A stretch of DNA of 19,342 nt from Bacteroidota bacterium (GTDB taxonomy: Bacteria; Bacteroidota; Bacteroidia; NORP154). The notes under the pieces were generated by a model. The model made no database searches. It had not been told where the DNA came from and saw only the letters and a program-made list of their open reading frames with translations. A program made the translations under genes and the position numbers. The DNA lies in NCBI GenBank assembly GCA_002401055.1, contig NVRZ01000001.1, forward strand, positions 13,941 to 33,282, given 5' to 3'. Below, piece by piece: positions 1,480 through 19,342 of the stretch. Each line of letters opens with the position of its first letter. Position 1 is the stretch's first letter.

Positions 1480-1482
1480 CAC

Positions 1483-1725
1483 GCTAATATAGCTACAAGT
1501 GAGAGAATCTGTGATGCAGAGGTCCGAATATAAAGTAGTGTGGGTGTTATGTTGTTCATACCGCTTACCCGCTTCAGGCGGACATTGTTTAGAGTAAACG
1601 GTCTCCCGAGATTAGTTACTGTCATATATGCCCCACATCCAATATTTGAATGGGTATTAATACTTCCATATGTAAATAAATTAATCAATTCAGATCCGTT
1701 CAATTGGACATTAGGTTAAATGGAA
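1483..1725. other. Intergenic region with a small hairpin and a weak attC-like trace
   Basis: No convincing gene. A minus-strand reading of 76 codons crosses it but runs out of frame into the TPR gene and has no family-like features. The stretch holds a short hairpin CCGC-ttcag-GCGG (1569-1581) followed by CATTGTTTAGAGTAAACGGTC (1584-1602 core). The latter looks like the closing half of an attC-like site (ATTGTT) abutting an opening half (AACGGTC) with almost nothing between. GGTCCG at 1521-1526 could pair with CGGAC at 1579-1583. This may be a decayed site or chance. Confidence 0.3.
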
Positions 1726-3087: not shown

Positions 3088-3156
3088 AATTATAAAGGTA
3101 GTACATAAGTGTCTATTCCTGAAAAGACATTTCCTCTTTTGGTGAATTAAATAAAC

Positions 3157-3954: not shown

Positions 3955-3981
3955 TTAAATTGGCAACATCGGTCAAATTCT

Positions 3982-4022
3982 GCCTGCCACGGTGGCTGAA
4001 CGCAGCCGAAGCCCAGGCAGGC
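3982..4022. repeat. REP-like nested palindrome between DUF1853 and TPR genes
   Basis: The outer arms GCCTGCC (3982-3988) and GGCAGGC (4016-4022) pair perfectly and enclose a second stem GGCTG (3994-3998) / CAGCC (4003-4007). The element is much more G+C-rich than its surroundings. It sits just 3' of the minus-strand TPR gene but has no T-tract on that strand, so a rho-independent terminator is unlikely. GCCTGCC/GGCAGGC hairpins are a common kind of dispersed repeat in Bacteroidota; a related GCAAAGGCAGGC piece occurs inside attC-8 (around 13451-13465). Confidence 0.5.
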
Positions 4023-4045
4023 TTACCCCGTTCTGATTAAAAGTA

Positions 4046-5749: not shown

Positions 5750-5919
5750 AGTTCCAAGATAGCACTTCCTTTTTGACTCTGAGTGTCACACCCGGAAATA
5801 TGTGCTGTAACGGTAAGTATTTGGGCAGTACCGCTTTACTTTTCTAGCACCACCGACCATACACGCACGCTACAAATTACGCAAAACATTACTCACGCGG
5901 TATTGCCTCAAATACATCC

Positions 5920-6301
5920 TAAGTTTGAAATCTGTTAACTTGAAAAGGATTAACAGGACAGAACAGAGGAGTAAGATCAACAAATACACAGAGTCTTTAC
6001 AAAACTCGTCAACAATGAAGATCCCCTCTGTTCTTCTACTGACATTCCGTACAGTTCATTAGGCCTTTAAGCCTGTTTTTAGGATGTTGGAGTTAGCAGT
6101 AGAATTGTCCTATCAACCTTAAAACTATGAATAAATATAAGCAATATGTGGGCATTGATATGTCCAAGGATGTATTTGATGTAAGTTACTCGGATGGGAG
6201 TCATAAGACTTTTGATAATACCAAGTCAGGCTTTACGAAGTTTGTGAAGAGTCTATCAGGTAACGTGCATTGTGTGATGGAGAATACGGGTAGATACCAT
6301 T
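5920..6301 (+). mobile_element. IS110-family insertion sequence relic (5' end only) inside attC-1
   Basis: This segment holds the structured left noncoding end and the first 58-59 codons of an IS110-type transposase; everything downstream is gone. The left boundary falls near 5916-5920, where the attC-1 arm stops. The right boundary falls at 6297-6302, where the coding sequence runs into CATTGTTAGCG of the cassette. The shared CCATTGT suggests the 3' part was lost by recombination or deletion at a microhomology. The IS1111-attC group within this family is known to target integron attC sites, which fits the position, but whether this relic inserted by target choice cannot be decided here. Confidence 0.6.
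5958..6110 (+). ncRNA. Candidate bridge-RNA region of the IS110 relic
   Basis: IS110 elements (IS621 type) encode a bridge RNA in the noncoding left end just before the transposase. Here that interval is rich in paired elements: AGAACAGAGG (5960-5969) with CCTCTGTTCT (6025-6034), ten perfect pairs around a 55-nt internal region; CTACTG (6036-6041) with CAGTAG (6097-6102); and inside it the hairpin AGGC-ctttaa-GCCT (6061-6074). Two stem-bounded internal loops upstream of the transposase ATG match the general plan of a 5' stem plus target- and donor-binding loops. Loop identity and boundaries are guesses; the relic would be non-functional in cis because the transposase is broken. Confidence 0.3.
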
Positions 6302-6306
6302 GTTAG
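6127..6306 (+). pseudogene. IS110-family transposase, N-terminal fragment
   Basis: The reading frame from ATG 6127 starts MNKYKQYVGIDMSKDVFDVS and ends VMENTGRYHC with a TAG at 6304-6306. The YVGIDMSKDxFDV stretch carries the first catalytic aspartate (D11) and the CVMENTG stretch the glutamate (E52) of the DEDD RuvC-like domain of IS110/IS1111 transposases. Intact members run to roughly 300-400 residues, so about 80% is missing, including the remaining catalytic aspartates and the Tnp domain with its serine. The stop codon is provided by the neighbouring cassette key GTTAGCGCAC, so the frame is fused to foreign sequence. It is the only plus-strand gene in the window. Confidence 0.85.
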
Positions 6307-7211
6307 CGCACGTTTATTTTTATAAATTTCTTTTTTAATGACCCTTGCTCTGTAGAAATTTCGATTAAGTACAGTCCGCTTGTCCAACTGTTCGTATCAA
6401 AAGTTGTTTTACTCGCTTTGCTAACAATTTGGCCTGAACTATCGAAGACCTTAATCCAGTTGAGTTTTAAGTCATCATCAATGCTTATTAAGAGTTGGTC
6501 AGTCACCGGGTTTGGGTACAGTATGATTTTAGAATTTAATTCTGTATCCTCAATTCCAGTTCCGAAGCAGCTAAATATGAAATTGTCAATCATCCACCCG
6601 TCTCTGTTATTATTTATTGTGTCGCTGGAAAATGTGAAACGGAATCGGATGTAGTTCATGTTTCCTTGTGTGGAAATTGTTGATTTAATCCACCCGTCTG
6701 AATTACCTGTGAACCCAGGTTCGTAGTTGATGCTCTCAATTGTATCGAGTTGTGAATAAAGGTTGGTTCCGAAGAATGTGCCCACAGTGTCGGGAAAAAG
6801 AACAATGTTTGTCCAGTTTAAACCACCATCCATTGATGCCTCAATTATTCCACCATCCTTCAAGCTGTCAGTATCAAAACGGTGCCAGAATTCGATGCTA
6901 GTTTGGTCGTCCGAATAAAGTACAAACTCAAATGTTGATTTATTGCCAGTAGGGTATGCGGTCAGTGTGTCAGTTACCAACGCCAATGGATTTGAGTAGG
7001 CACTGTTAAACACGGTCTTTGAAGGTGTCCCGATTTGCCAAATGTTGTTTGTTTGTGTAGTGTCAAAGTAGAAATAGTTTGCTGTATCTCTGTCCTCAAA
7101 GTTACTGACAGGCTGGGGGAAGTAGTAAGCGATAGAATAAATCGTGTCCTGCCCATAAATTGTTAGATTGGTCGCCAGTATGATTGCTGAAATGAGAAGT
7201 AGTCGGTTCAT
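6303..7211 (-). CDS. Cassette C1: T9SS-sorted secreted beta-sandwich protein
   Basis: 302 residues with a signal peptide (MNRLLLISAIILATNLTIYG, cleavage near Q21). The central part resembles choice-of-anchor/MAM-like beta-sandwich domains: IEFWHRFDTDSLKDGG (106-121), ASMDGGLNWTNI (125-136) and YIRFRFTFSSDTI...DGWMIDNFIF (188-213). A C-terminal T9SS type A sorting domain starts at YPNPVTDQLLIS (232-243) and ends with GLYLIEIS and KKKFIKINV. It would be exported by Sec, then passed through the outer membrane and anchored or released by the type IX system. The TAA stop (6303-6305) lies inside the cassette key itself. The leader between ATG and the next attC-like site is only about 17 nt. Its key pair is the least exact of the array (GTTAGCGCAC against GTTGTGCGCAC). 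Ligand or substrate unknown. Confidence 0.9.
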   Translation of the reverse strand: MNRLLLISAIILATNLTIYGQDTIYSIAYYFPQPVSNFEDRDTANYFYFDTTQTNNIWQIGTPSKTVFNSAYSNPLALVTDTLTAYPTGNKSTFEFVLYSDDQTSIEFWHRFDTDSLKDGGIIEASMDGGLNWTNIVLFPDTVGTFFGTNLYSQLDTIESINYEPGFTGNSDGWIKSTISTQGNMNYIRFRFTFSSDTINNNRDGWMIDNFIFSCFGTGIEDTELNSKIILYPNPVTDQLLISIDDDLKLNWIKVFDSSGQIVSKASKTTFDTNSWTSGLYLIEISTEQGSLKKKFIKINVR

Positions 7212-7228
7212 CGTCTGTGTTTTTTAAT

Positions 7229-7354
7229 GTGCGCACAACGGTCCGGCTTACAGCAGTGGGGCACTTTGCTTTGTTTACACCACTTACGAGCTAAACCTGC
7301 TTACCGTTACAGGCTTAAATACGCCCCATTGCGCGTAAGGCATTGTTATGGTGC
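7229..7354 (-). repeat. attC-2
   Basis: Opens GTGCGCACAACGGTCC and closes GGCATTGTTATGGTGC. The arms GGCTTACAGCAGTGGGGC (7245-7262) and GCCCCATTGCGCGTAAGGC (7323-7341) pair with a few mismatches and extra bases, as expected of attC stems. The central part, CACCACTTACGAGC...TTACCGTTACAGGCTTAAA, is nearly the same as in attC-9, showing common descent. Confidence 0.8.
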
Positions 7355-7355
7355 G

Positions 7356-8255
7356 TTACGGGCTAATTATTAATTTCCCAGAACCAACAAATGTTTGATC
7401 TGATTTTAGATTGTATAAATAGATACCCGGATTGTAATTGGAAAGGTCAATTCGTTCACCGGAGGATATGGAATGATTCAAGATTTGTTGACCCAGCAGA
7501 TCATACAGCTCAACATAATATGTCAATTCTGATTTATCCGTTATTTTAAAGGTAACATAGTTAGAGGCTGGGTTTGGCGCAACAGACACATTTGTCTCGC
7601 TGGATTTAAATTCTTCAACAGCATCTAAGAATTGACAATGACAAGATCCGTAGGAATTATATATCAAGGAATCGTCAAGCTTATGACAGAGCAGAAAAGT
7701 AGTGTTACTACCAGTCATGTTTAACTGAAATGGACCATAGTAATTTCCAATGCCTTCGATCCATTCCTGCGCTTCAACCACACCACCGAATCTTATTCTT
7801 CTTCTATACGTTCCATTTATCATGATTGAGTCTACAACACTAACTTGCTCCACGCAACCTAATCCAAAGTAGCCTAAACAGACACTGTCTCCAACATTTA
7901 GAGAAAAGTCATAAAGAAGTACGTCAATGGTGTCACTAGGGTTTCTTACCCATACTTTTTTCATTGAATCTTCTCTGAGCGCGCAAAAGTATGTCGCTAG
8001 TTGTGCGTTAAACATAGTGTCACCAAACGAAGAGAGATAGATTTTGGAATATGAAGTGCTATCTATAATTGTGTCACCCTCCATCCCATAGAACTCATCA
8101 CCGCCACATACCCAATAGCCATTAGGGATATTTACCCAATTCATATATCCTATACTCCAGTACGAACTATCAGTTGGAAATGGGTAATATGTCTGAGCAG
8201 TTAAGTTCAGGGAAACACAAAGTGTTACCAGAGTAATTACACTTTTCATAGTCAT
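7356..8255 (-). CDS. Cassette C2: T9SS-sorted secreted protein
   Basis: I choose ATG 8255 (MTMKSVITLVTLCVSLNLTA), giving 299 residues with a clear signal peptide; ATG 8249 is equally plausible. A further upstream ATG at 8267 lies within the attC key and would add MVHK, which is unlikely. The body has the look of the many Bacteroidota secreted proteins with the phrase EWIEGIGNYYGPF (near 164-176), plus repeated DTI/DSxxY beta-strands and six or more cysteines (for example YGSCHCQF). A T9SS type A sorting domain begins VSVAPNPASNYVTFKI (about 223-238) and ends with GIYLYNLKSDQTFVGSGKLI. The TAA stop is one base beyond the cassette key. The protein should be exported through Sec and T9SS to the cell surface or medium. 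No enzymatic motif is recognised. Confidence 0.9.
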   Translation of the reverse strand: MTMKSVITLVTLCVSLNLTAQTYYPFPTDSSYWSIGYMNWVNIPNGYWVCGGDEFYGMEGDTIIDSTSYSKIYLSSFGDTMFNAQLATYFCALREDSMKKVWVRNPSDTIDVLLYDFSLNVGDSVCLGYFGLGCVEQVSVVDSIMINGTYRRRIRFGGVVEAQEWIEGIGNYYGPFQLNMTGSNTTFLLCHKLDDSLIYNSYGSCHCQFLDAVEEFKSSETNVSVAPNPASNYVTFKITDKSELTYYVELYDLLGQQILNHSISSGERIDLSNYNPGIYLYNLKSDQTFVGSGKLIISP

Positions 8256-8260
8256 TTTAT

Positions 8261-8384
8261 GCACCATAACGGCCCGTGTTTGCGTAGTGTGGCCTTACTT
8301 TTTTATATACCTCTTACGAGTCTAACCTACTGAACCTTATTAATCGATCTTTGCCGCATTGCGCCAAACACATTGTTGTAAGAA
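8261..8384 (-). repeat. attC-3
   Basis: Opens GCACCATAACGGCCCG and closes CACATTGTTGTAAG. The arms GTGTTTGCGTAGTGTGGC (8276-8293) and GCCGCATTGCGCCAAACAC (8353-8371) pair with one small bulge. The inner part contains CTCTTACGAGTCTAACC, the same subfamily signature as attC-2, -9 and -10. Confidence 0.8.
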
Positions 8385-8401
8385 GTAGTCCGATACAGAT
8401 G

Positions 8402-10177
8402 TCAGTTCTGTAATATTTGACTTATTAATGAAACACTAAAGATGCTCAACAAAAACCAACCTAAAAACCCTTCTAGTATTGCTACATATCTAGTTACACC
8501 TTTAACCGGAATATCACCAAAACCCAAGGTGGAAAACGTGTTAATGCTAAGAACAGTTGAGTTGAGTGCTCGTATCAAGACAAGGTATACTAGATACACA
8601 ATAATTGCTGAACTCACAGCAGTTCCAACTAAAACTTTCCGAACTGGTTTAAGATCTATCCAGCGACCACTTAGTATTTCTGCTCTTCTATAAATCCAAG
8701 TCATAACTTTATAATTTATGAGAGACATGCTGTATAATGGTTTACCAAGCACACCAAAAAAGAAGGGAATTTCAATTTTACTCTCCTCTATTTCTACTTT
8801 AAAATCCTCATAAGATCTAAACGCTTCTCTATGTTCATCTGAATAGAAATCTTCAAGTTTCTGTTCTGATCGGAAGTACTGTAACATTTTTCGATATTGA
8901 TTCATTAAAAAGCGCCTACTTATTTTATCCCAATCGCTGTAAAAGAAAAAATAGAAGCACGCAAATGCAAAGATCACGTATATGGAGATTATGAGAGACT
9001 TCACAGGGCTGGTACCGTAATCACAAAAATGTTTAAGAAATTGATTCAGCTTCCAATTGATCCATTTTTTCCCCGTGGGTGATTGGCGGTAGAGGAAGTT
9101 TAATCGGCCAGTCTCAATGTCTTTCATAACTACGTAGCAGGCATTAGCACTTTCGCGGTCTCCACGAGTTTTGTACATCGAGAAAAAGTTGCTATAACTA
9201 CTTGTAAGCCCGTAATAATTAAATGTTTCCGTAAGCTGTGAGTCACCACCAGCTACATAAGGAGAATCATAGTCGTTATATAAACATAATTTCACCTCAT
9301 CAATTGACTCCCAACGAAAGTAAGTATGCCTTTCTGGAAATTGAAAACGATCCACACCAATTGGGTATGTGAAAGTGGTGTTTTGGCCTATGGTAACACT
9401 CTCATTAGCACTACAGTCTTCAAAATTTATGGGGACTTCAAATGAGCAGTTTACCAAACTTAGCTTTCCATAATTACCCTTAAATATGACAGGATTATTA
9501 TATGGTAAAACAGCTTTAAAACTACAGTTCGAAATGCTTATTGAACTTTCTGGAACTTTGTTAACACACAGTAGGAGATGGCGTGGCCCAGATCTTTGAG
9601 AAGAAGTGTCATTGAATATTGTATTGTAAACATCTAGTTTCTGAAAGGTGCTCTGGTAAAGAAATAGTCTATTGTATATTTCTGAATCATTAATGATTAT
9701 TCTATTGTCAAAATCTGCTTTCCAGATGTGAAGGGTACTAAATTGGCAGTTTCCAAATCCAATGTTTCCTTGTGGAATTTTGCACATTAGCAAATAAAAA
9801 CCTTTTTCAAAAGAAAGGTTATATAAGTTGAAATAACTAAAACTACCTTTCAGTCTGAATGTACAGTTGACAAGGTTAACTTTTGATTTGACAATAATTC
9901 TGTTTGAAATACTCAGAAGTGTATCGTAAAGGTCTTTTCCTACTATTGTGTCATCAATTCCAAGCTTGCTTGCGAGAAGACTTTCCAATTCATTATGTGA
10001 AATAAATATTTCTGCATTTTTCAGAGTGTACGTTTTCTTTGTGCAGCTCAACATCTCCTCAATCCATTCAGTTCCCGATAGCTGCCTTTGGATATTATTC
10101 TGAGAATGTGATGCTAGCGTAGTAAGTAGAAATAATGCAAGTAGAGCCCTTTGACGAATTTGATTTATTTTGATCAT
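8402..10177 (-). CDS. Cassette C3: beta-helix/pentapeptide-like protein fused to a potassium-type ion channel pore
   Basis: 591 residues. An N-terminal signal or anchor (RALLALFLLTTLASHS) is followed by about 250 residues of short beta-strand repeats, each with one or two aromatic or hydrophobic residues and Asn/Ser/Cys turns (FRLKGSFSYFNLYNLSF, FGNCQFSTLHIWKADF, LYQSTFQKLDVYNTIF). These look like a pentapeptide-type or right-handed beta-helix. A membrane segment (SLIISIYVIFAFACFYFFFY, about 391-412) and a charged cytoplasmic stretch follow. The C-terminus is a two-TM pore: TM VSSAIIVYLVYLVLI, pore helix and filter TLGFGD (550-555), and TM YVAILEGFLGWFLLSIFS. TLGFGD matches the K+ channel filter TxGYGD/TxGFGD. 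I infer a K+-selective channel with a periplasmic beta-helix; gating unknown. The 33-nt leader is longer than in most other cassettes. Confidence 0.85.
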   Translation of the reverse strand: MIKINQIRQRALLALFLLTTLASHSQNNIQRQLSGTEWIEEMLSCTKKTYTLKNAEIFISHNELESLLASKLGIDDTIVGKDLYDTLLSISNRIIVKSKVNLVNCTFRLKGSFSYFNLYNLSFEKGFYLLMCKIPQGNIGFGNCQFSTLHIWKADFDNRIIINDSEIYNRLFLYQSTFQKLDVYNTIFNDTSSQRSGPRHLLLCVNKVPESSISISNCSFKAVLPYNNPVIFKGNYGKLSLVNCSFEVPINFEDCSANESVTIGQNTTFTYPIGVDRFQFPERHTYFRWESIDEVKLCLYNDYDSPYVAGGDSQLTETFNYYGLTSSYSNFFSMYKTRGDRESANACYVVMKDIETGRLNFLYRQSPTGKKWINWKLNQFLKHFCDYGTSPVKSLIISIYVIFAFACFYFFFYSDWDKISRRFLMNQYRKMLQYFRSEQKLEDFYSDEHREAFRSYEDFKVEIEESKIEIPFFFGVLGKPLYSMSLINYKVMTWIYRRAEILSGRWIDLKPVRKVLVGTAVSSAIIVYLVYLVLIRALNSTVLSINTFSTLGFGDIPVKGVTRYVAILEGFLGWFLLSIFSVSLISQILQN

Positions 10178-10210
10178 ATGCTTGTTTAAGTGTGCCTTTT
10201 AGGGCTATTA

Positions 10211-10322
10211 CCTACAACGGTCCGGTTAAGTGCCGTGCCGCATTGTTTTAGTAGCCTTAAGATACGAAACACTTTTGATAAATATTCTGGCGTGGCATGG
10301 TGCCTTAACCATTGTTAGTGGC
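10211..10322 (-). repeat. attC-4
   Basis: Opens CCTACAACGGTCCGG and closes CCATTGTTAGTGGC. The arms GGTTAAG (10224-10230) and CTTAACC (10304-10310) pair perfectly and continue into GTGCCGTGCCGC against GCGTGGCATGGTGCC with extra bases on one side. Unpaired extra bases on one strand are the feature by which integrases of the IntI type choose the attC bottom strand. Confidence 0.8.
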
Positions 10323-10324
10323 TT

Positions 10325-10909
10325 TTACTTCAACCTGATTTCCGGCAAGTTGACTGCTAACATCTGATTCAAATGTTTAATTCTTGCTTCTGGAAGTGCA
10401 GTTAAAAAGGGCATAATATCATCTCCATAGCTTCTCTTGGAATATGCAAATACAAGAATTCCTCGTTTCCCTTTTTTTAGCTTGACTCTTTTGTATCTGT
10501 AAATGATGAATTCCACCATGATCATAATGTCCTTTTCAGTATGTTCTCCAAGTATACAATCCAACATCAGTTCTTTCCCATCAGGACTTTTATTGACCAA
10601 GTAATTGCAATTAGGGTCATTCTTTTTTCGTTCATCTAGCTCATTTGCCTTCTGTTGTACCGCTTCCTCTACGGTCAGGTCAGTTATAAACACATGGCAA
10701 GTTATCATCTGATTGAACTTCTCCAGAGTTTCGTCTCTGGGCAAGTATTCTTGAATATAGTAGTAGTCACTTGGCTTATCAGTCCACTTTAATTCAAATA
10801 TTGTTTCATTGAATTCAATTGGCCCTGGCACACCAATTCTTTCTGCCCTATCACCACTCCATGTGGATGCGACTAGAAATGAAGATATCAGAAGTGATGC
10901 TAACTTCAT
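10325..10909 (-). CDS. Cassette C4: small exported protein of unknown function
   Basis: 194 residues with an N-terminal signal peptide (MKLASLLISSFLVASTWS). The mature part is mixed alpha/beta and charged: YYYIQEYLPRDETLEKFNQM (about 49-68), a strand-like HVFITDLTVEEAVQQKANEL, two cysteines (NPNCNYLV-type and LDCILGE), and a basic patch YKRVKLKKGKRGILVFAYS. I do not recognise a family. The repeated strand pattern and the phrase GILVFAYSKRSYGDD suggest a small periplasmic domain related to those scoring lipoprotein-like stress or surface material, but this is a guess. The ATG at 10909 lies 14 nt from the attC-5 key, so the gene has no room for its own promoter outside the site. It must be read from upstream cassettes or from within attC-5. 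Confidence 0.75.
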   Translation of the reverse strand: MKLASLLISSFLVASTWSGDRAERIGVPGPIEFNETIFELKWTDKPSDYYYIQEYLPRDETLEKFNQMITCHVFITDLTVEEAVQQKANELDERKKNDPNCNYLVNKSPDGKELMLDCILGEHTEKDIMIMVEFIIYRYKRVKLKKGKRGILVFAYSKRSYGDDIMPFLTALPEARIKHLNQMLAVNLPEIRLK

Positions 10910-10923
10910 ATTTTTTATTAATT

Positions 10924-11047
10924 GCCACTAACGGTCCGGCTTAAAGCAGTACCGCCTTACGTTCAGATACCTACGTAAGGCACACTTACCCACCCAAGTT
11001 ATATAAACTCAGGTTCTGCGGTATTACTTTAAGCCAATGTTGTATGC
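10924..11047 (-). repeat. attC-5
   Basis: Opens GCCACTAACGGTCCGG and closes CCAATGTTGTATGC. The arms GCTTAAAGCAGTACCGC (10939-10955) and GCGGTATTACTTTAAGC (11018-11034) match at 15 of 17 positions. A second, inner hairpin CCTTACG (10955-10961) / CGTAAGG (10974-10980) sits in the loop. Confidence 0.8.
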
Positions 11048-11050
11048 AGT

Positions 11051-11581
11051 TTAATTATAGTCCTTTATTATTAATTTGCCATTCTTAAAGTCTATCACAA
11101 CATACTTTGATTTTATTCCTTTTTTATTCCATTCTGCTGAAATAGCTCCAAATGGATTATCAAAATTCAGATATATTTCACTTATGCCGTCCAAGTCTAA
11201 GTCATCAACAACCAATTGAACTCCTGAATGTTTTCCCCATTTTTTCAATGATTCTAAGCTGTCAGGATAAGGCATATCAAGTTGGACATTGGGGAAATCT
11301 CTTTTTATACCATCAGAACTTAGAGTTAATTGCAAATAGAAATAGGTATGAGCTCCTCCATTACCAATAAATAATAAAGAATCATTCTTTTCATCCCCAT
11401 CAAAATCCCACTTGTTAGAATAATTATAAGAGGTGTTTTTGGTTTCAGTTTCTGGATTGTAAATCTCTTCAGTGTATTCGGAAAAAGGAATGTCAACTTC
11501 TTTCATATCCGTTGAATCTGATTGAGCGTTAGCTGCTACTGATGTAGAGGTCAATAATAAGATTGTATAAAAATGTCTCAC
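11051..11581 (-). CDS. Cassette C5: small exported protein with two DxDGD-type metal-binding-like loops
   Basis: 176 residues: a signal peptide (MRHFYTILLLTSTSVAANAQ), an acidic linker (21-57), then two repeated strand-loop units. The first is NKWDFDGDEKNDSLLFIGNGG (57-77; D59, D61, D63) and the second LVVDDLDLDGISEIYLNFDN (123-142; D127, D129, D131). Each has the DxDxDG pattern followed by D/E and a hydrophobic strand, as in FG-GAP/VCBS calcium-binding beta-propeller units, though two units are far too few for a propeller. It is probably a small calcium-stabilised periplasmic or surface protein; function unknown. The leader between ATG 11581 and the attC-6 key is 14 nt, and the stop is 3 nt from the attC-5 key. 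Gene and cassette are therefore almost the same length, as in compact integron cassettes. Confidence 0.75.
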   Translation of the reverse strand: MRHFYTILLLTSTSVAANAQSDSTDMKEVDIPFSEYTEEIYNPETETKNTSYNYSNKWDFDGDEKNDSLLFIGNGGAHTYFYLQLTLSSDGIKRDFPNVQLDMPYPDSLESLKKWGKHSGVQLVVDDLDLDGISEIYLNFDNPFGAISAEWNKKGIKSKYVVIDFKNGKLIIKDYN

Positions 11582-11595
11582 TTAATTTCGTAATT

Positions 11596-11667
11596 GCATA
11601 CAACGGCCTGTGTATGAAGCGGAGCCAGCCGATAGGCGGCTATGATTTCATACACCTTGTTAACACC
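11596..11667 (-). repeat. attC-6 (short, 72 bp)
   Basis: Opens GCATACAACGGCCTG and closes CACCTTGTTAACACC. The arms GTGTATGAA (11610-11618) and TTCATACAC (11647-11655) are a perfect nine-base inverted repeat with an inner AGCCG/CGGCT stem. It is much shorter than the other sites and lacks the long central loop, so it is close to the size of classical 60-bp attC sites. Confidence 0.8.
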
Positions 11668-11672
11668 TTTTG

Positions 11673-12209
11673 TTATTTTATTTTTAACGAATTCATTATT
11701 TCGTCTGCGGTTGTTTCCCATTCCGTGATACTTTTTTCCGTACAATTAAAAGTACATAACAGCAATTTCGCATCTAAATCAGTGAAAAACATTACATTAT
11801 AGATTTTCGTATCAATTGCTGGTGTAATTAGTTTTAAATACCCGACTTTTCGGCCATTAATTTTTTTCATTCCCGAGCCTTTCCATTCAGCAGAAGGGTA
11901 CAGATTTTTAAATGTATTCACGAAATTTTCTACGTATGGTTCAATCATTTTTTGACTTGCTTTATTCTCAGTCAAGTTTAATGAAACATTTATTCCTCCA
12001 CTTTCATTTGAATAAATAAGAGTTGGTCTTCTTTCTGATGGATATTTTAGTTTCATCAGTTCTTCTGACATTATTTCAAATTCCGATGGTATTTTTAATT
12101 CAACTTTATCATTCATTAATGATTTAATTTCAAGTTCAATTTTTCCAACGGTCATTGAAACTAATGGGATAATTAATATTCCAATAAATAATAGTTTAAT
12201 TTTTTTCAT
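11673..12209 (-). CDS. Cassette C6: small exported protein, DcrB/PsbP-like fold (tentative)
   Basis: 178 residues with a signal peptide or lipoprotein-like N-terminus without the lipobox cysteine (MKKIKLLFIGILIIPLVSMT). The pattern of the mature part fits the small Mog1/PsbP/DcrB-type fold: an opening strand VELKIPSEFEIMSEE (36-50), a hydrophobic strand with GGINVSLNL (70-78), a helix around MIEPYVENFVNTFKNLYPSA, the central hairpin KINGRKVGYLKLI (about 115-127), strand YNVMFFTDLDAKLLLCTFNCTE and a closing helix ending EIMNSLKIK. Those proteins are periplasmic or lumenal and rarely enzymatic. The assignment rests on strand order only. Codon use is markedly A+T-rich compared with the RNA repair genes of C8, in keeping with separate origins of cassettes. 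The leader is about 17 nt. Confidence 0.75.
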   Translation of the reverse strand: MKKIKLLFIGILIIPLVSMTVGKIELEIKSLMNDKVELKIPSEFEIMSEELMKLKYPSERRPTLIYSNESGGINVSLNLTENKASQKMIEPYVENFVNTFKNLYPSAEWKGSGMKKINGRKVGYLKLITPAIDTKIYNVMFFTDLDAKLLLCTFNCTEKSITEWETTADEIMNSLKIK

Positions 12210-12226
12210 TTATGTTTTTTTTAATT

Positions 12227-12350
12227 GGTGTTAACGGCTCGGCTTTGAGCCAGTGCCGTCTTTAAAGTTACGCTTTACGCACAGATTAGAAGTCTACCCG
12301 ACCTGCTAATCACGTGCTCCCCGGCATGGCGCCAAAGGCATTGTTAGCGG
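12227..12350 (-). repeat. attC-7
   Basis: Opens GGTGTTAACGGCTCGG and closes GGCATTGTTAGCGG. The arms GGCTTTGAGCCAGTGCCG (12241-12258) and CGGCATGGCGCCAAAGGC (12322-12339) pair at most positions. The loop has the CTTTACGC...CGACCTGCTAATCAC type of sequence found in several sites. Confidence 0.8.
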
Positions 12351-12359
12351 TATTTTACA

Positions 12360-13253: not shown

Positions 13254-13276
13254 TTATAGTTTCTTTTATTTAGTTA

Positions 13277-13554
13277 CCGCTAACGGTCTGTATTAGAAAC
13301 GTGCGTTCCGAACATGACCAGCCTGCCGATTCTCATTAATAGCGGTAAACGCTTTAACATGTTCTGCTTCACGTTAATTACTTACGTTACTGCTCCGCAT
13401 TTTGCTTAATGACCTAGCCAACCTTCACAGTCCGACTTACGGTCACTAACCTGCAAAGGCAGGCAAAGCAAACGGCGTTTCTCAAAGATAGTAAAAGACT
13501 GAGATGCTTCGGCGAAGACCTTCCCAGCATGTTTTCTAATACAATGTTGTAAAA
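13277..13554 (-). repeat. attC-8 (long, 278 bp, composite)
   Basis: Opens CCGCTAACGGTCTG and closes ACAATGTTGTAAAA. The terminal arms TGTATTAGAAA (13289-13299) and TTTCTAATACA (13533-13543) are a perfect 11-base inverted repeat. Inside, AACGTGCGTTCCGAACATG (13298-13316) pairs with CATGTTCTGCTTCACGTT (13358-13375) as a second large stem. The site is more than twice the usual length and may be two sites fused or a site with an insertion (13376-13530 includes a GCAAAGGCAGGC REP-like piece). Confidence 0.7.
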
Positions 13555-13878
13555 TCGTAAACCGCCACTACTACGGCAAGCCTAACCGGAATTTCACATA
13601 TCCGCCCTGCCGTACTGATTGCGCTCTGAGTACGAACAGCTTCATCGTTCTGGGTACGCTCACCTTATCAGTCCGACCTACACGCCACCCTTTACGACCT
13701 GCTTATAAGTCCACCGAGCGCCGGGAGAAGAGATTTTGATTTGAGTTAAGCGGCGACTTGGATATAAGATTAGCGGAGGGGGTTTTGTGATTTGCTCACC
13801 GCAGAGCAAAAACTAAGAGGGTTACAACACAGAAGCATGAACGAGGATGGCAATTGACAAAACAGCGTGAGTCCTTTT
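13555..13878. other. Structured noncoding 3' flank of the RNA repair genes inside cassette C8
   Basis: No open frame looks coding. The stretch has several paired elements: TACGGCA (13572-13578) with TGCCGTA (13608-13614), and a hairpin around 13627-13662 (GAAC/GTTC with flanking TAC/GTA and TGAG/CTCA). It also has GAGATTTTGATTTGA (13730-13744), which is repeated inverted on the far side of the operon. Short TTACGA/CCTGCTTATAA phrases resemble loop sequence of the attC-like sites, so part may be decayed site. No T-tract terminator is clear. Confidence 0.45.
13730..13744 (+). repeat. Left copy of inverted repeat flanking hen1-pnkp
   Basis: GAGATTTTGATTTGA here is exactly complementary to TCAAATCAAAATCTC at 18046-18060. 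The similarity extends outward (CCACCGAGCG at 13711-13720 against CCACCGCGC in the reverse complement of 18061-18070), with an extra ten bases in the left copy. Confidence 0.55.
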
Positions 13879-16452
13879 TTACAACCTCGGATCAACTTCC
13901 TCGCTCTCCAATGCCAATACCCCGAATACACTCTCGTGTATGCGCCTTAGCGGTTCTTTTTTGACAAACCGTTCAAGACCTTCGATTCCAAGAGCAAATT
14001 CCCTGAGAGCCAAAGATCGCTTTCGAGAAAGGCCTCTGTTCTTCAGCCTTTCAAGATTCTCCGGCAGATCATACTCAGGGCCATAGATAATTCGTAAATA
14101 CTCGCTACCTCTGCATTTCACCGCTGGCTGTAGAAGTCCATCCCTACCTGTTGCAACAAACTCATACGGCTTGACTACCATACCTTCACCACCCACTTTG
14201 GTCAGTTCTAACCACCAGTCAACAGCTTCAGCAACACTTTCCTTATCCTGGGTGTCAATTACCTTATAAGGCGTAACTCTGAATATCTTTTCATCCGCCT
14301 TGCACAGTTCCTTGATATTCTCCATGTGCCACTCATGATCTTTATCAACATGTACTTTCCCTTCAGTAGCTAGGATATGGAACGGTGCCAACTTGTAGTC
14401 TTCAACTGAAGAAACGTCCCAACAGTAGTGCCTGTATGCATCTGTATACTTTGCTATCGCAGTTTTCCTGTTACTATATTGCTCCAATGGTTGCTTTGCT
14501 TTACCAATTCCTCCGTCAACAGCTTTTTTGAGTACTAGTTCAACTTCAACCAGTGCGTTTTTTGCTGCTGCGCCCACAGAAGCATATTGATCTTGGATCA
14601 GCGACTGTGCTTTAGCAGACCAAGGCATTAATTCAGCATCCAGACATACCCAATCAGTATTGTGCTTTTCCCAAAATTTCGATTTAGTGAGAGCCTTAGC
14701 CACTCTAGACAGGAATTCCTTCTCCAGTTTTGAATCATTGAAGAAATTTCGGCCAGTACGCGTGTAGCAGATTCCGATTCCTTCATCAGATATACCAAAT
14801 CTTTTAAGAACGGTATCCTCGTCCTTACAAATAACTAGTACCGCACGTGAGCCCATATGCTTCTCCTCACAGATAACTTTCTTGACAGCCCTTTTCTTAT
14901 AATAGTTAATGGCTTGATTCGGATGCTCTAAGAAATCTGGCAAATCACTCGTACCACAGGGTGACATTGTAGGTGGCAGATATATCAACCATTTAGGATT
15001 TATAGCGAATCGGCTCATTAATTCAAGAGCTGCAATTGAGTTTTCCTCCCGAATAGTGATATTGTTTCTCAAACGTGTTTGAACAATGCGCTTGCCGATA
15101 ACATCATCAATATTGAGCAAGTCATCATACTCCTGCTGATGCGACATTTGCTCACTTGCTTCCTCAATGAAGGGCTTTGCTGGCTCACAGTAAGTTTTCT
15201 TTGCCGGAACGGAGACTAATTCTTCCTCTGGATATCTCAAAGCGGTTAACTTTCCTCCAAAAACACAACCGGTATCTATATCTATCGTTTTGTTTAACCA
15301 TTCCGCTTCGGGAACAGGGGTATGGCCATAAACTACTTTTGCCTTTCCTCTGTACTCTGAAGCCCAGTTATATCTAACTGGTAAGCCAAATTCATCCGTT
15401 TCGCCTGTAGTCTCACCATAAAGGCAAAAGGCACGAACTGCACCTGATCCTCTTCCTTGCATTTCCTCTTTCAATCCCGCATGAGCAACAACTAGCCTTC
15501 CATCATCAAAGACAAAGTGGCTAATCAAACTATATAAGAATTCCTTTACCTGCTTAATAAACTCAGGAGATTCAGATTCTAGTTGCTCTAAGGTTTCTGT
15601 TAGCCCATGATTAACTGTCACATTCTTGCCGTTAAGCTTCTTTTGTAATTTCAAATCGTGATTACCTGGAACGCAAATACCAACCTTACTGTGAACCATA
15701 CTCATTACCAGCTTTAGAACAGCAGGTGAATCAGGGCCACGATCAACTAGATCACCCACGAAAATGATCTGTCGCGCCTCCTTATGCGTTACGTCAATCC
15801 CAAAGTTCTTTCCGTCATCCTTTACTTTCTTGACGCTATATCCGAGCTTTTTAATCAGCTCAAGCGTTTCGTCGTAACAGCCATGAATGTCTCCGATTAT
15901 ATCGAAGGGTCCTTTGTTGTCTTTCTTATCATTATAGAGCCTCTCTCTGCCAATCTCAGTGACACTATCCACTTCTTCTACCGAGTTCAGGACGTAGATC
16001 TGCCTAAACCCCTCTCTTTTAAGACCTCTAAGAGAACGCTTCAGCTGCTGCTTTTGCTGTCGAATAACATGATTTCCAAAATCTCTCTCAGGACGTTTAG
16101 CATTTCTATCCTCACACTCTCGCTGTGGTATGTTCAGAACAATGGCTACAGGTAGTGTATGGTATTCTCGCGCCAATTGGATCAATCCTTTTCGCGACTC
16201 AGGTTGAACATTGGTAGCATCTATAACGGTCAAGTATCCGTTTTTTAACCTTTTGCCCGTAATGTAACGCAAGACGTCAAAGGCTTCATTTGTAGCCGAC
16301 TGACTGTTCTCGTCATTGGAAACTATTCCCCTGCACTCATCAGACGACACAACTTCATATTTACCAAAGTGCTTTTTGGCAAAGGTGCTCTTACCCGATC
16401 CAGAAGCTCCGATCAGTAATACCAATGATAGATCTGGTACTTTAATTTCCAT
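13879..16452 (-). CDS. pnkp: Pnkp: polynucleotide 5'-kinase / 2',3'-phosphatase / RNA ligase (bacterial RNA repair)
   Basis: An end-healing and sealing enzyme of the bacterial RNA repair system: it phosphorylates 5'-OH, removes 2',3'-cyclic or 3'-phosphate, and with Hen1 seals tRNAs cut by ribotoxins. Start chosen at ATG 16452 (857 residues, MEIKVPDLSLVLLIG): this aligns the P-loop GASGSGKST at 15-23, the position known from the Clostridium thermocellum enzyme (870 residues). An in-frame ATG 54 nt upstream would add 18 residues that make no sense. Kinase: K21/S22, D38 and R41. Metallophosphatase: GDIHG (D188, H190), GDLVDRG (D234), GNHD (N264, H265), AHAG (H324), GHTP (H377), D393. Ligase: EEKHMGSR with nucleotidyl-accepting K531, CLDAELMPW, GGEGMVVKP (754-762), KCRGSEYLRIIYG (779-791). 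All catalytic residues look intact. It overlaps hen1 by 11 nt, so translation is probably coupled. Confidence 0.97.
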   Translation of the reverse strand: MEIKVPDLSLVLLIGASGSGKSTFAKKHFGKYEVVSSDECRGIVSNDENSQSATNEAFDVLRYITGKRLKNGYLTVIDATNVQPESRKGLIQLAREYHTLPVAIVLNIPQRECEDRNAKRPERDFGNHVIRQQKQQLKRSLRGLKREGFRQIYVLNSVEEVDSVTEIGRERLYNDKKDNKGPFDIIGDIHGCYDETLELIKKLGYSVKKVKDDGKNFGIDVTHKEARQIIFVGDLVDRGPDSPAVLKLVMSMVHSKVGICVPGNHDLKLQKKLNGKNVTVNHGLTETLEQLESESPEFIKQVKEFLYSLISHFVFDDGRLVVAHAGLKEEMQGRGSGAVRAFCLYGETTGETDEFGLPVRYNWASEYRGKAKVVYGHTPVPEAEWLNKTIDIDTGCVFGGKLTALRYPEEELVSVPAKKTYCEPAKPFIEEASEQMSHQQEYDDLLNIDDVIGKRIVQTRLRNNITIREENSIAALELMSRFAINPKWLIYLPPTMSPCGTSDLPDFLEHPNQAINYYKKRAVKKVICEEKHMGSRAVLVICKDEDTVLKRFGISDEGIGICYTRTGRNFFNDSKLEKEFLSRVAKALTKSKFWEKHNTDWVCLDAELMPWSAKAQSLIQDQYASVGAAAKNALVEVELVLKKAVDGGIGKAKQPLEQYSNRKTAIAKYTDAYRHYCWDVSSVEDYKLAPFHILATEGKVHVDKDHEWHMENIKELCKADEKIFRVTPYKVIDTQDKESVAEAVDWWLELTKVGGEGMVVKPYEFVATGRDGLLQPAVKCRGSEYLRIIYGPEYDLPENLERLKNRGLSRKRSLALREFALGIEGLERFVKKEPLRRIHESVFGVLALESEEVDPRL

Positions 16453-17839
16453 AGGTAAATACTGCCATTTGTGATGGAGGTCCAACCTTCTTCTCGATTT
16501 CTCCAACTGGTAGAAACTCTACCGTGTAATTATTTCGTTTTCCGACTCCGTTGGCCCAGCTCTCGAACTCTTTACGTGTCCACTCAAAGCGGTGGTCTGT
16601 ATGTCTCATGCTACCAGCGTCCATGCCTTCAAAAAGCACATTGTACTCTCCATTAGGTGTTGTAAGCACGACTGTTTTGGGATTGGCGAATTCAAACACA
16701 ACTCTCTCGAAAGCCAATAATCTGTTAGTATCTAAATGTTCAATAACCTCAACGATAGCCGCCGCATCGTACCCCTCCATTCTTTTATCCTTATAAGTCA
16801 AAGCACCTTGAAAAAGTGAGATACGTTCTTTTTGCCTAGGAGCCATTTCGTCCCAGTGTAATCTGTCTTTTGCTCTGGTCAATTCATTATAAGAAACATC
16901 AGTTCCTGCAATTGTGGAGAATTGCTTTTCCTTCAGGAGCATGCGCAGGAGCTTTCCTTCACCACATCCTAGATCTATTACCTTTTGTGCTCCCGACTTC
17001 TTTAATTGTTCTAGAACCAAAGACAAACGCTTCTGATGAAGTGTTTCCTTACGTTCTTTCTCCTTGCTGCCTTCCTCTTCCGCTGCTTCTTGAGGCTCGT
17101 CGCCCTCATTCAATCTTTCCAAGGCCTCTCGTGAAAGTGAATGGAGATTGATCAGATAACGCCTCGTAATTTGTTCCATCTCAGGATGGGTTGACAACCA
17201 GCCTTTACCTTTTTCAAGCAGCTTGTTAATTTCATCCTGGCTCACGAAGTAATGTTTGAAATTATCAATTGCTGGAATTAGGATATACAGATGAGAAAGC
17301 AATTCTTTGATAGTAATAGTATGGGACAATTCAAGAGTAAAGTACTTGCTATCTCCCCAATCTTTGAATGAGTCATCCAAGATGTGTCTTTGCAGTTTGA
17401 CCTTATAACCTAATGGTTCAAATAGTTTTCTAATCAGAATTTCGCCACCCTTAGGTGCTGGAAGAACGGCTAGCTTGACTTGGAGAGGAAGTTTAGTATC
17501 GACTAACTCTGGTTTGTCGGCACAATTTCCGTTCATCGCCGTCGAGAACGCCTTAGACAGAGCAACGCTCATGAATGAGGAAGCTACATAAGGGCGGTCA
17601 TTAACGTATTGCGCAAGTGAGAAGCCAGTACCAGATACCTTTCTTCCACTTCTGACCATATCAATTGGATTGATATCAAGAAGTACTGCAATGGTAGTGC
17701 TCTCCTCTGAGCTTTCAGGATAGAAGATATGAGCCTTGCCTATAGGTAGGTCGACTGACTGGAACTTATCTGGATGCTTGTGAAGCAGATATCCTAAATC
17801 TGTCGCGGGCGAATGTGTTGTGGTTATCGTTAATAGCAT
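16442..17839 (-). CDS. hen1: Hen1: RNA 3'-terminal ribose 2'-O-methyltransferase, Pnkp partner
   Basis: 465 residues. It methylates the 2'-OH at the 3' end of the broken RNA before sealing, so the repaired site resists the same ribotoxin. The N-terminal half (MLLTITTTHSPATDLGYLLH, GKAHIFYPE 34-42, LLDINPIDMVR 53-63, YVNDRPYVASSFMSVALSKA 78-97, LPAPKGG 126-132) is the Hen1 N domain that activates the Pnkp ligase. A glutamate-rich linker (242-265) follows. The C-terminal methyltransferase has the SAM motif VIDLGCGEG (287-295) and the metal-binding set E364, E367, H368 (VEVIEHL) and H416 (RHTDHRFEW). First gene of the operon, read from the leader at 17840-18163. Its last codons, TATGGAAATTAA, include the pnkp start. 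It fits the standard hen1-pnkp order and spacing. Confidence 0.97.
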   Translation of the reverse strand: MLLTITTTHSPATDLGYLLHKHPDKFQSVDLPIGKAHIFYPESSEESTTIAVLLDINPIDMVRSGRKVSGTGFSLAQYVNDRPYVASSFMSVALSKAFSTAMNGNCADKPELVDTKLPLQVKLAVLPAPKGGEILIRKLFEPLGYKVKLQRHILDDSFKDWGDSKYFTLELSHTITIKELLSHLYILIPAIDNFKHYFVSQDEINKLLEKGKGWLSTHPEMEQITRRYLINLHSLSREALERLNEGDEPQEAAEEEGSKEKERKETLHQKRLSLVLEQLKKSGAQKVIDLGCGEGKLLRMLLKEKQFSTIAGTDVSYNELTRAKDRLHWDEMAPRQKERISLFQGALTYKDKRMEGYDAAAIVEVIEHLDTNRLLAFERVVFEFANPKTVVLTTPNGEYNVLFEGMDAGSMRHTDHRFEWTRKEFESWANGVGKRNNYTVEFLPVGEIEKKVGPPSQMAVFTYGN

Positions 17840-17866
17840 CTCGGAGCAGATTGGTCATTGAGGTAA

Positions 17867-17874
17867 CAAATTTA
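17867..17874 (-). promoter_or_regulatory. Candidate Bacteroidota -7 promoter box for hen1-pnkp
   Basis: On the minus strand the sequence reads TAAATTTG, an exact fit to the TAnnTTTG -7 element of Bacteroidota primary sigma factor promoters, 27 nt before the hen1 ATG. A TTG-type -33 element is not clear upstream (CTCTGTACAG region), so the call is tentative. It would give a short leader of about 20 nt. Confidence 0.4.
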
Positions 17875-17943
17875 AACTCTTTTAGCTGTACAGAGAATGG
17901 TAGAGTGTAAATACTTACTTCCGCAGAACATAAGTTTTAGGAG

Positions 17944-18035
17944 AGCAAGCTCTTTTACAGGTTTGCCGGAGGCCGTGCTTTTTTGTTTGTATTTTTTCCA
18001 CAAACCAAAAAGGACGACCTGTAAATGTGCTTGCT
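17944..18035. repeat. Long hairpin (92 nt) upstream of hen1
   Basis: AGCAAGCTCTTTTACAGGT (17944-17962) pairs with ACCTGTAAATGTGCTTGCT (18017-18035) at 17 of 19 positions, and inside it TTTTTTGTTTGT (17979-17990) pairs with ACAAACCAAAAA (18000-18011). It lies about 70 nt upstream of the candidate promoter. It does not carry the AACGGTC/ATTGTT ends of the attC-like sites. It could be a small non-autonomous palindromic repeat, a decayed foreign recombination site, or the terminator/attenuator of incoming transcription. Confidence 0.6.
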
Positions 18036-18163
18036 GTGCGGAGGGTCAAATCAAAATCTCGCGCGGTGGCTTATCCGCCCAGTTTGTCAGGGTTCTGCTT
18101 ACGAACCGTTCAGGGGTCCTACATACCCGCCCCACGTATTACACAAATGAATCACGGTTTATG
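18036..18163. other. Distal leader of cassette C8, no gene seen
   Basis: About 130 bp between the long hairpin and the attC-9 key. Plus-strand readings through here are short and lack family features. It contains the right copy of the flanking inverted repeat, TCAAATCAAAATCTC (18046-18060), and a G+C-richer stretch (GCGCGGTGGCTTATCCGCCC) unlike the neighbouring cassettes. With the 17840-17943 part, this cassette has a 325-nt leader, against 11-33 nt in most others. Confidence 0.5.
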
Positions 18164-18285
18164 TTTTACAACGGTCCGGCTTAACTTAGTGGGGCCATTG
18201 TTTTTTTCACACCACTTACGAGTTATTCCTCCTTACCTTTACAGGCTTAAACACGCCCCATTAAGCTTAAGCCATTGTTACAAGC
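18164..18285 (-). repeat. attC-9
   Basis: Opens TTTTACAACGGTCCGG and closes GCCATTGTTACAAGC. The arms GGCTTAACTTAGTGGGGC (18178-18195) and GCCCCATTAAGCTTAAGCC (18255-18273) pair almost throughout. The core CACCACTTACGAG and TTTACAGGCTTAAACACGCC parallels attC-2 closely. Confidence 0.8.
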
Positions 18286-18293
18286 AGTTAAGG

Positions 18294-18845
18294 TCAAACA
18301 TCCTTAAATTCGTATATAACTTTCATCCTTTGCTGTCCTTGCTTATTAGTATACTTTTCTTTTCTCTCACTTGGTTTTGGGCAAAGCCTCTTTTCTAACC
18401 AGATTGGTAGAATCAAAGAAGGAATATTAAGGCATACCACGAGAACTGCAGCCGCCCAGTTAAGCGAATCTGTCCCGCTGAAAATGATTCCAACGATGCT
18501 GACAATTAAGCCGAACGCCGCCATAGCTGCTACCCACATATAGTATTTAAGTAGCATTCTTGCTACCCCATATATTAAAATCCCATACCAAAGCACAATT
18601 CCAATCGAAGGGGAGGCATACATATAAAGTCCAGCCGTTAGAATGAGCAGGCTAAGAAGCATGTAATTCCATTTACCATATAGTTTGATTGCTTCCAATG
18701 ATGGGAGGTTTTTTATTAAATCGGCCACAATCTTCCCGTTTTTATATTTCGTTTTTAAATTTTCATATGCGGTTTGACGAGAAATTCCTTCCTTCAGAAG
18801 CTTCCTGGCTTCCGTTCTAATCACTTTTTTATCAGGTTTATCCAT
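18294..18845 (-). CDS. Cassette C9: four-TM membrane protein with helical N-terminal domain
   Basis: 183 residues. Residues 1-53 are a charged helical region (KKVIRTEARKLLKEGISRQT, AYENLKTKYKNGKIVADLIK) resembling a short helix-turn-helix or a membrane-protein regulatory tail. Four hydrophobic segments follow: WNYMLLSLLILTAGLYMYA, IGIVLWYGILIYGVARMLL, YMWVAAMAAFGLIVSIVGII and WAAAVLVVCLNIPSLILPIW. The C-terminus (about 150-183) is basic and soluble. I do not recognise a specific family; small proteins with this N-terminal region and four helices are seen in Bacteroidota. Inner-membrane location is expected from the segments and the positive ends. ATG 18845 is 18 nt from the attC-10 key and the TGA stop 8 nt from the attC-9 key. 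Confidence 0.8.
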   Translation of the reverse strand: MDKPDKKVIRTEARKLLKEGISRQTAYENLKTKYKNGKIVADLIKNLPSLEAIKLYGKWNYMLLSLLILTAGLYMYASPSIGIVLWYGILIYGVARMLLKYYMWVAAMAAFGLIVSIVGIIFSGTDSLNWAAAVLVVCLNIPSLILPIWLEKRLCPKPSERKEKYTNKQGQQRMKVIYEFKDV

Positions 18846-18863
18846 TGATTCGTTTATAGAATT

Positions 18864-18985
18864 GCTTGTAACGGCCCTAATAAACGCACGTGCGGCCTGG
18901 TTTTGTTAATTACCACTTACGAACCTGCTGTACTAACCGTTGCAAACTGAGCTTCGCCGCATTGCGTTTATTAATTGTTAGCGCC
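18864..18985 (-). repeat. attC-10
   Basis: Opens GCTTGTAACGGCCC and closes AATTGTTAGCGCC. The arms TAATAAACGCACGTGCGGC (18878-18896) and GCCGCATTGCGTTTATTA (18956-18973) pair with one bulged base. The loop has the CCACTTACGAACCTGC subfamily signature. Confidence 0.8.
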
Positions 18986-18997
18986 AGTTTTAAACTT

Positions 18998-19285
18998 TTA
19001 ATAAATTACAAATGCCATCAACAGAAACAACACATTTATAATTATCGCCAGCAGGATAAATATTTTGTAATATCTGACTTTATATGGATATCCTTTAAAT
19101 CTTATAATAGCTAGCGGTAACGATAAGAAGCTTGAGTAAAAAATTCCCGCTAATCCAATAACCCACATCACGGAATCAATATGAGCAGTGTAATTACCAC
19201 CAAGTTTGGCGTTCCCGTAAATTGTGAAGTTGAGAGTCATTAAAATTCCCAAAATCAACAATTTAATTTTCTCCTTTTTACTCAT
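18998..19285 (-). CDS. Cassette C10: small three-TM membrane protein
   Basis: 95 residues with three hydrophobic segments: IKLLILGILMTLNFTIYG (7-24), MWVIGLAGIFYSSFLSLPLAI (40-60) and YKIFILLAIIINVLFLLMAF (72-91), separated by a short polar loop (GNAKLGGNYTAHID) and a basic loop (RFKGYPYKVRYY). No family is recognised. The basic loop between helices 2 and 3 suggests that this loop faces the cytoplasm. The ATG at 19285 is 11 nt from the attC-11 key, the shortest leader in the array, so it depends on transcription from the right or from within attC-11. Cassettes encoding tiny membrane proteins of unknown role are common in chromosomal integrons. Confidence 0.75.
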   Translation of the reverse strand: MSKKEKIKLLILGILMTLNFTIYGNAKLGGNYTAHIDSVMWVIGLAGIFYSSFLSLPLAIIRFKGYPYKVRYYKIFILLAIIINVLFLLMAFVIY

Positions 19286-19296
19286 TATATATAATT

Positions 19297-19342
19297 GGCG
19301 CTAACGTCAATTATAAGAGCAGTGCTGGCTTCACCATCACCG
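19297..19342 (-). repeat. attC-11 (cut by window edge)
   Basis: Opens GGCGCTAACGTCAATTATAA, the exact complement of the C10 left key GTTAGCGCCA extended by the next base. Only 46 bp are visible, so the second arm cannot be seen. It deviates after AACG (TCAA instead of GTCC/GCCC). Its presence means the array continues to the right. Confidence 0.65.

Follow-up and report, generated by a model that had tools for sequence, protein, structure and literature searches.

An integron-type cassette array in Bacteroidota, probably served by a tyrosine recombinase other than IntI

Integrons are one of the main gene-capture systems of bacteria, and the locus described here raises the question of which recombinase serves a cassette array in a Bacteroidota bacterium whose own genome holds no IntI over the cut-off. 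The window, i.e., the whole 19,342-nt stretch of DNA that was analyzed (G000:C253:13941-33282), lies at the right-hand end of a contig of 33,282 bp; the assembly totals 2.49 Mb in 269 contigs (60% complete, 0.2% contamination). An earlier account made from the letters alone (the sequence-only reading) had described ten consecutive minus-strand units and proposed an integron-type array, either devoid of an integrase or acted on by a different recombinase. The ten units are indeed there (6303-19304, 327 to 4625 bp long, genes all on the minus strand), with one site 3' of each gene, and the action of a different recombinase is supported by the recombinases found at array heads in relatives and at the public loci named below. 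Very probably, the window is a platform for gene capture of the integron type, and the enzyme that drives it is a XerA/IntI-like tyrosine recombinase distinct from IntI; activity is inferred from sequence. The system looks like an integron variant present in many Bacteroidota, a second form of a known gene-capture system that has escaped notice. At its right edge the window meets both the array head and the contig end, so nothing beyond 19342 can be read.

Private cassette ends and attC-like sites

In nine of the ten window cassettes, the start of the gene strand reappears at the end as its reverse complement, a key private to each cassette. At positions 4-10 (the seven bases after GTT), a cassette's own head and tail match on average at 5.8 of 7 positions versus 2.4 for non-own pairs (maximum 5, n = 90), and 0 of 100,000 permutations reached the observed match sum. 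From left to right, the units score 0, 7, 5, 6, 7, 6, 7, 6, 7, and 7. The private complementary ends that the sequence-only reading had attributed to all ten units therefore stand for nine and fail for the leftmost (6303-7238), which has no match in register and resembles its partner only with a shift.

The IntI-type core consensus is GTTRRRY/RYYYAAC. None of the 10 window heads fits GTTRRRY, nor do more than 4 of 47 heads elsewhere; GTTR is present in 57/57. These 47 units, taken from the 20 recombinase loci that passed a loose head test (next section), carry A at head position 11 in 47 cases and G at the mirror position of the tail in 46, and the keys before position 11 are free, with 42 distinct ten-base keys among the 47. 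The constant end step makes a G.T wobble in the folded strand and an A.C mismatch in the other. The window follows this less strictly: A stands at the head position in 9 of 10 units, and the tail position is G in 6, T in 3, and C in 1. Cassette ends thus follow GTTR-N6-A, not GTTRRRY.

Eight window sites align into a structure of 23 pairs, 12 of which show two-sided changes. Inside AAC/GTT, five bases face three, some of which can pair as G.T, and a long L stem follows. Known attC sites are laid out as R, an unpaired central spacer, L, and a terminal structure, and G follows AAC in most of them (PMC2727003). By computed folds and covariation, the window sites fit this plan, and AACG occurs in 36/36 sites as well as in 17/19 further own-genome sites. 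A one-base bulge lies only on the classical extrahelical arm in 17 of 28 own-genome sites, only on the other arm in 0, on both in 5, and on neither in 6; the corresponding counts for 27 sites from other loci are 1, 5, 3, and 18, so the bulge is not a general feature. The sequence-only reading had listed 11 palindromes with AACGGYC...ATTGTTR ends. Sites of attC-like form do separate the units, but the first is split by an insertion sequence, the rightmost is the array head, and the end motif is approximate: s7 starts with AACGGCT, s1 with AACGGTA, and s11 with AACGTCA, while s5 and s8 end in AATGTT and s6 in CTTGTT.

The two strands of the sites differ. Over 36 sites, the outer stems hold 43 G.T pairs when the strand opposite the genes is folded versus 1 when the gene strand is, counts that are not independent since the sites are related. 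The strand opposite the genes is computed to be more stable in 29 of the 36, with 1 equal. The G.T wobbles may mark the folded strand. The head element of contig C226 (L095:273-336) folds better as the gene strand (-24.9 versus -12.7), the reverse of the attC-like sites, and the C173 head leans the same way by a smaller margin.

The sites extend well beyond the window. A covariance model built from the eight window sites (R1) matched the own genome 30 times at E 0.1: 9 of these matches are on the window contig, and the other 21, one of them weak, are spread over ten further contigs. R1 matches occur in 7/7 genomes of the order (one by a single match, E 0.003) and, under stricter filters, in 42/396 genomes of the class, both sets including the own genome; among 28 short loci of the class survey, a strict unit was present in only 9. 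A looser unit rule gave 26 units on own-genome contigs versus 3 in shuffled sequence but 28 versus 16 in relatives, and was dropped for the latter result.

Comparison of contexts points to exchange at the G/TT step, where breakpoints had been anticipated. A cassette whose gene we take, by eye, to be TlpA-like occurs on G000:C237 and on G005:C5 with 91% identity across 823 nt; the match stops at GTT on one side and at AAC on the other, and the neighbors differ. A third copy, on G000:C11, begins at the contig end; its AAC side is visible, there too with another site. Array heads behave similarly: those of C189 and C173 are identical over 98 nt and diverge just after GTT, and the window head and C226 are identical over 41 nt and diverge just after GTTA. 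Shared heads with different cassettes suggest, as their expected trace would, different insertions at one attI, in different cells or in several arrays; alternatively, they may be assembly errors. This evidence is comparative and, GTT being shared, places the breakpoint no more finely than GTT. With 5800-13600 as the query (a stretch that stops short of the Pnkp/Hen1 part), six relatives matched mainly the sites and not the whole array, so the fixed gene order that would have spoken for ordinary spacers was not seen. Two matches were of another kind: G005 shares the piece of insertion sequence, and the end of cassette C that encodes the channel recurs in G004, in G005, and at another place in the own genome, at 67-84%.

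The recombinase at array heads

In the relatives G003 (C54), G006 (C120), and G004 (C39), a tyrosine recombinase gene lies upstream of adjoining R1 sites in the same direction as the cassettes, and in G004:C82 and G005:C54 a GTT key comes after a gene of this kind. The order is recombinase stop codon, attI-like junction, and cassette head. Open frames of 383-425 amino acids (aa) precede a cassette head or key in G004, G006, and G005:C54; the G005:C26 copy is broken, and the G003 copy is without most of its N-terminal part. Archaeal integrons reportedly have attI just downstream of intI (PMC9668308), so that co-orientation of integrase and array, with attI behind the stop, is not unique to the system described here. 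Tyrosine recombinases are present in the own genome as well, their absence having been named beforehand as a sign against an integron.

We extended the comparison to public genomes with the best 80 loci of a longer list, all of the same recombinase family; 31 loci with under 1 kb downstream were excluded before counting, leaving 49 with at least 1 kb. Under a strict rule (a GTTR-N6-A head plus a matching tail, using conserved position 11), a cassette head lies less than 200 nt from the recombinase stop in 19/49 loci versus 2/1350 random upstream windows, and two or more chained cassettes follow in 10/49 versus 0/1350. Since this rule was drawn from the loci on which it was then tested, the controls, and not the count alone, carry the weight. 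The earlier loose test had been passed by 20/49 loci, of which 10 showed at least two units (the corresponding control counts among 592 upstream windows were 39 and 3); L214 was the locus lost in moving to the strict test. Within 219.5 kb of downstream sequence, 85 units are co-oriented with the recombinase versus 1 opposed, and shuffled sequence yields 0. In L170 and L172, the frame already meets a stop codon a short way ahead of the one used, so their head distances of 29 and -4 are understated. No head followed 7 distinct Xer-type control genes (11 loci, 8 rows, one gene twice) with flanks of 1.2-1.5 kb. A strong palindrome occupies the 45 nt before GTT in 10/26 attI-like junctions versus 1% of shuffles.

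The 19 loci include Arenibacter arenosicollis, Winogradskyella ursingii, W. pacifica, W. epiphytica, Seonamhaeicola aphaedonensis, Polaribacter vadi, Flavobacterium selenitireducens, and Rufibacter sp., together with one metagenome-assembled genome (MAG) labeled Micrarchaeota, an unconfirmed label. Related recombinases with head-like junctions at L228 (Micrarchaeota) and L214 (a MAG labeled Nitrospirae, loose test only) suggest either spread beyond Bacteroidota or mislabeled bins. L197 and L206, from MAGs labeled Flavobacteriales, have a common first cassette key, GTTATGGGTC, in units of 2902 and 2580 nt.

The recombinase combines a SAM-like core-binding domain (PF13495) with a catalytic domain (PF00589), and the catalytic residues R, K, HxxR, H, and Y are invariant in 39 sequences. 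The copy on C264 of the own genome scores 213 bits against NF040815, below the cut-off of 220. As read from the alignment, the IntI-specific insertion (I2, or patch III) is absent in 85/85 non-IntI rows, 23 of them at array heads, and is present in IntI1 and IntI2 in the same alignment; residues 180-245 of the IntI structure 2a3v face a 23-position stretch in the recombinase. Nine loci with no protein of at least 250 aa (L170, L172, L192, L207, L209, L222, L225, L227, and L231) were excluded from alignment and tree, and the tree, which holds two IntI only, leaves their place among the array recombinases unsettled. By sequence and fold, the closest solved relatives of the catalytic part are XerA and archaeal Xer recombinases, from which the present recombinase differs by its additional N-terminal domain of ~100 residues and by its place at cassette-array heads. 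A paper on an "integron-like" subgroup of tyrosine recombinases, to which the catalytic part is likewise close, presents the insertion as essential for integron function. IntI over the TIGR02249 cut-off is found in 0/7 genomes of the order, most of them incomplete, and in only 2/396 of the class; these two integrases lie on G136:C40 and G370:C58 (L247 and L248). The array-head recombinase is a XerA/IntI-like tyrosine recombinase, and its membership of the IntI family is not supported.

Mechanism and rival explanations

In the mechanism we propose, a cassette would excise as a circle in which its own two ends rebuild the long private stem, the strand opposite the genes would fold into a hairpin, and the recombinase would cut at the G/TT (AA/C) step and join the cassette to attI. 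Integration would split the outer stem between neighbors; since the private stem would be complete in the circle and broken afterwards, the reaction could favor capture, and capture may be easier than loss. In 9/10 units, the predicted start of the gene is only 1-39 nt away from the end of the unit (the leader of cassette H is 331 nt), which leaves hardly any possibility for own promoters. Cassette genes would thus be mostly promoterless and would probably be read from upstream, the first ones from the integrase side.

Several observations weigh against this picture. No recombinase is seen on the window contig, and the 295 nt that precede the same head on C226 contain no frame for an integrase. 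In the 60%-complete own genome, a close recombinase was found only on C264, where an ORF6N gene rather than an array comes next; it was rejected as the head of the window array for want of any array downstream. Within the window, the strand opposite the genes is more stable in only 4/9 sites, and the wobble ratio is 9 to 1. The first cassettes of C189 and C173 are without a matching tail on their contigs. Moreover, 30/49 testable loci failed the strict head test, so that not every family member is shown to head an array, and the Xer-type controls had no more than that 1.2-1.5 kb downstream.

How far does the system depart from a classical integron? The two share co-oriented, mostly promoterless cassettes, a foldable site 3' of each gene, exchange at GTT, usually G after AAC, an unpaired spacer between the R and L arms, and an integrase with attI at the head. 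They differ in that the integrase here is without the IntI-specific insertion and has the extra N-terminal domain, that a long private key goes with a GTTR-N6-A(T) core, and that one-base bulges are not general and G.T wobbles mark one strand. A cluster of attC sites lacking integrases (CALIN), with ordinary IntI cassettes kept or moved by an IntI in trans, would account for the overall attC anatomy, the bulge on the classical arm only (17/28 own-genome sites, other arm 0), and the AACG of 36/36 sites. Like a CALIN, the window contig shows no integrase; it ends at the array head, where several relatives have one. We find a classical CALIN very improbable: another recombinase family heads such arrays, IntI over the cut-off is lacking from the 7 order genomes (mostly incomplete) and nearly so from the class, and GTTRRRY is as rare as reported above. 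Still less credible, to the point of being negligible, are ordinary intergenic palindromic repeats of the repetitive extragenic palindromic (REP) type or terminators. The sites are palindromic, repeated, and intergenic, as such repeats would be, but private key pairing, a constant end motif in unrelated cassettes, GTT/AAC breakpoints, and an orientation of 85 to 1 are foreign to them, and the same gene order and spacers that they would require in relatives are the opposite of what the query 5800-13600 returned.

A relic array, that is, the same system without an active recombinase in this lineage, is unlikely but deserves more weight. No integrase is seen next to the array or its sister head C226, an insertion sequence interrupts the first site, the two ends of the first unit have drifted apart, and among relatives the integrases of G005:C26 and G003 are damaged. 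Against decay in the window lineage stand the two contig pairs that differ just after the same head, as expected of recent attI turnover, the 9/10 keys that still match at 5-7 of 7 positions, and the open frames of G004, G006, and G005:C54.

A broader proposal is more tentative, and we would put it forward as a possibility short of an even chance: a separate integron lineage common across Bacteroidota, and perhaps found in other phyla, in which two devices regarded as essential to classical integrons give way to others, the I2 insertion to an N-terminal domain binding distorted DNA (HARP/XPB-like) and extrahelical bases to G.T wobbles that single out the strand for folding. If so, integration would weaken the hairpin and favor keeping captured cassettes. 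The I2 domain is described as accommodating extrahelical bases and as not identified outside IntI (PMC4792948); should IntI have arisen within the wider recombinase group, folded-strand cassette capture would predate the domain thought to enable it. The need for I2 in recombining folded single-stranded sites becomes testable, as Winogradskyella, Arenibacter, Polaribacter, and Flavobacterium are among the isolates whose platform does without it, and a hidden pool of mobile cassettes is opened. Surveys find IntI by its specific domain (PMC9668308), and the IntegronFinder 2.0 survey names Salinibacter ruber as the member of the Bacteroidetes proper that has a complete integron (PMC9024848). Such arrays are not described in the titles and abstract openings of the literature matches listed, bioRxiv and most subscription journals being outside reach.

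Features of the window and minor observations

Table 1. Cassettes, attC-like sites, and other features of the array (window positions; R1, covariance model of the window sites)
Feature	Position	Strand	Evidence
attC-like site s1, leftmost, body; split by insertion sequence	5809..5919	-	R1 match C253:19747-19863, 39.8 bits, E 3.2e-7; alignment to intact G005 site
Truncated element inside s1, presumably IS110-type; transposase start 6128	5920..6298	+	83% identity to region around intact 324-aa transposase, same-genus G005
s1, last bases, ATTGTT	6299..6304	-	Alignment to G005 site
Cassette A; gene 6303-7211, type IX secretion system (T9SS) sorting domain; ends match only when shifted	6303..7238	-	
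attC-like site s2	7237..7347	-	R1, 109.4 bits
Cassette B; gene 7356-8267, T9SS sorting domain; key GTTATGGTGC	7346..8269	-	
attC-like site s3	8268..8377	-	R1, 115.1 bits
Cassette C; gene 8402-10177, C-terminal ion-channel-like domain just under Pfam cut-off; key 5/7	8376..10217	-	
attC-like site s4	10216..10316	-	R1 match
Cassette D; gene 10325-10909, no Pfam family	10315..10931	-	
attC-like site s5	10930..11041	-	R1 match
Cassette E; gene 11051-11581, no Pfam family	11040..11603	-	
attC-like site s6, short (60 nt)	11602..11661	-	R1 match
Cassette F; gene 11673-12209, no Pfam family	11660..12234	-	
attC-like site s7	12233..12345	-	R1 match
Cassette G; gene 12360-13253, DpnII-MboI-like nuclease domain	12344..13283	-	PF18742, E 3.5e-45
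attC-like site s8, long (267 nt)	13282..13548	-	Absent from R1 match list
Cassette H (4625 bp); Pnkp 13879-16506 and Hen1 16442-17839, RNA repair pair; key 6/7	13547..18171	-	TIGR04075, 1448.6 bits, and TIGR04074, 710.2 bits, both over cut-off
attC-like site s9	18170..18279	-	R1, 112.1 bits
Cassette I; gene 18294-18845, no Pfam family	18278..18871	-	
attC-like site s10	18870..18979	-	R1 match
Cassette J, which opens the array; gene 18998-19285	18978..19304	-	
attI-like array head, cut by contig end	19303..19342	-	Same 41 nt as C226:296-336, beyond which the cassettes differ; C173 and C189 carry related heads

The cargo of the window includes a nuclease and an RNA repair pair. The C-terminal half of the cassette G protein also matches the PADLOC helical-REase model (E 5.6e-29). 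One unit holds two genes: at 13547-18171, Pnkp and Hen1 share a single 4.6-kb cassette and are flanked on both sides by untranslated stretches of 331 nt. The T9SS sorting domains (PF18962) of two cargo proteins fit Bacteroidota. An Rfam scan returned no window match at the gathering score and none in 5700-19342 at E 1, and a tRNA search of the window found none.

The element within s1 we take to be IS110 from a translated motif rather than from a family search. In two genomes, an element of this presumed type adjoins the final bases of an attC-like site; the copy on G005:C5 (L103:3922-5150) is intact, and that of the window is truncated. The IS1111-attC elements ISKpn4 and ISPst6 likewise sit at one end of a recombination site (PMC11187229); the copy here differs in being IS110-like, by our own naming, in its Bacteroidota sites, in its truncation in the window, and in its occurrence in two genomes only.

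Related tetratricopeptide repeat (TPR) proteins occur at array ends and inside cassettes in the own genome and in G005 (window 1-5749; L094, L095, and L103), and a TPR-linked cassette key, GTTACAGCAC, is found on both C11 and C226. On G000:C64 (L097:507-848 and 11326-11657), tandem repeats of ~42 bp lie near two attC-like sites.

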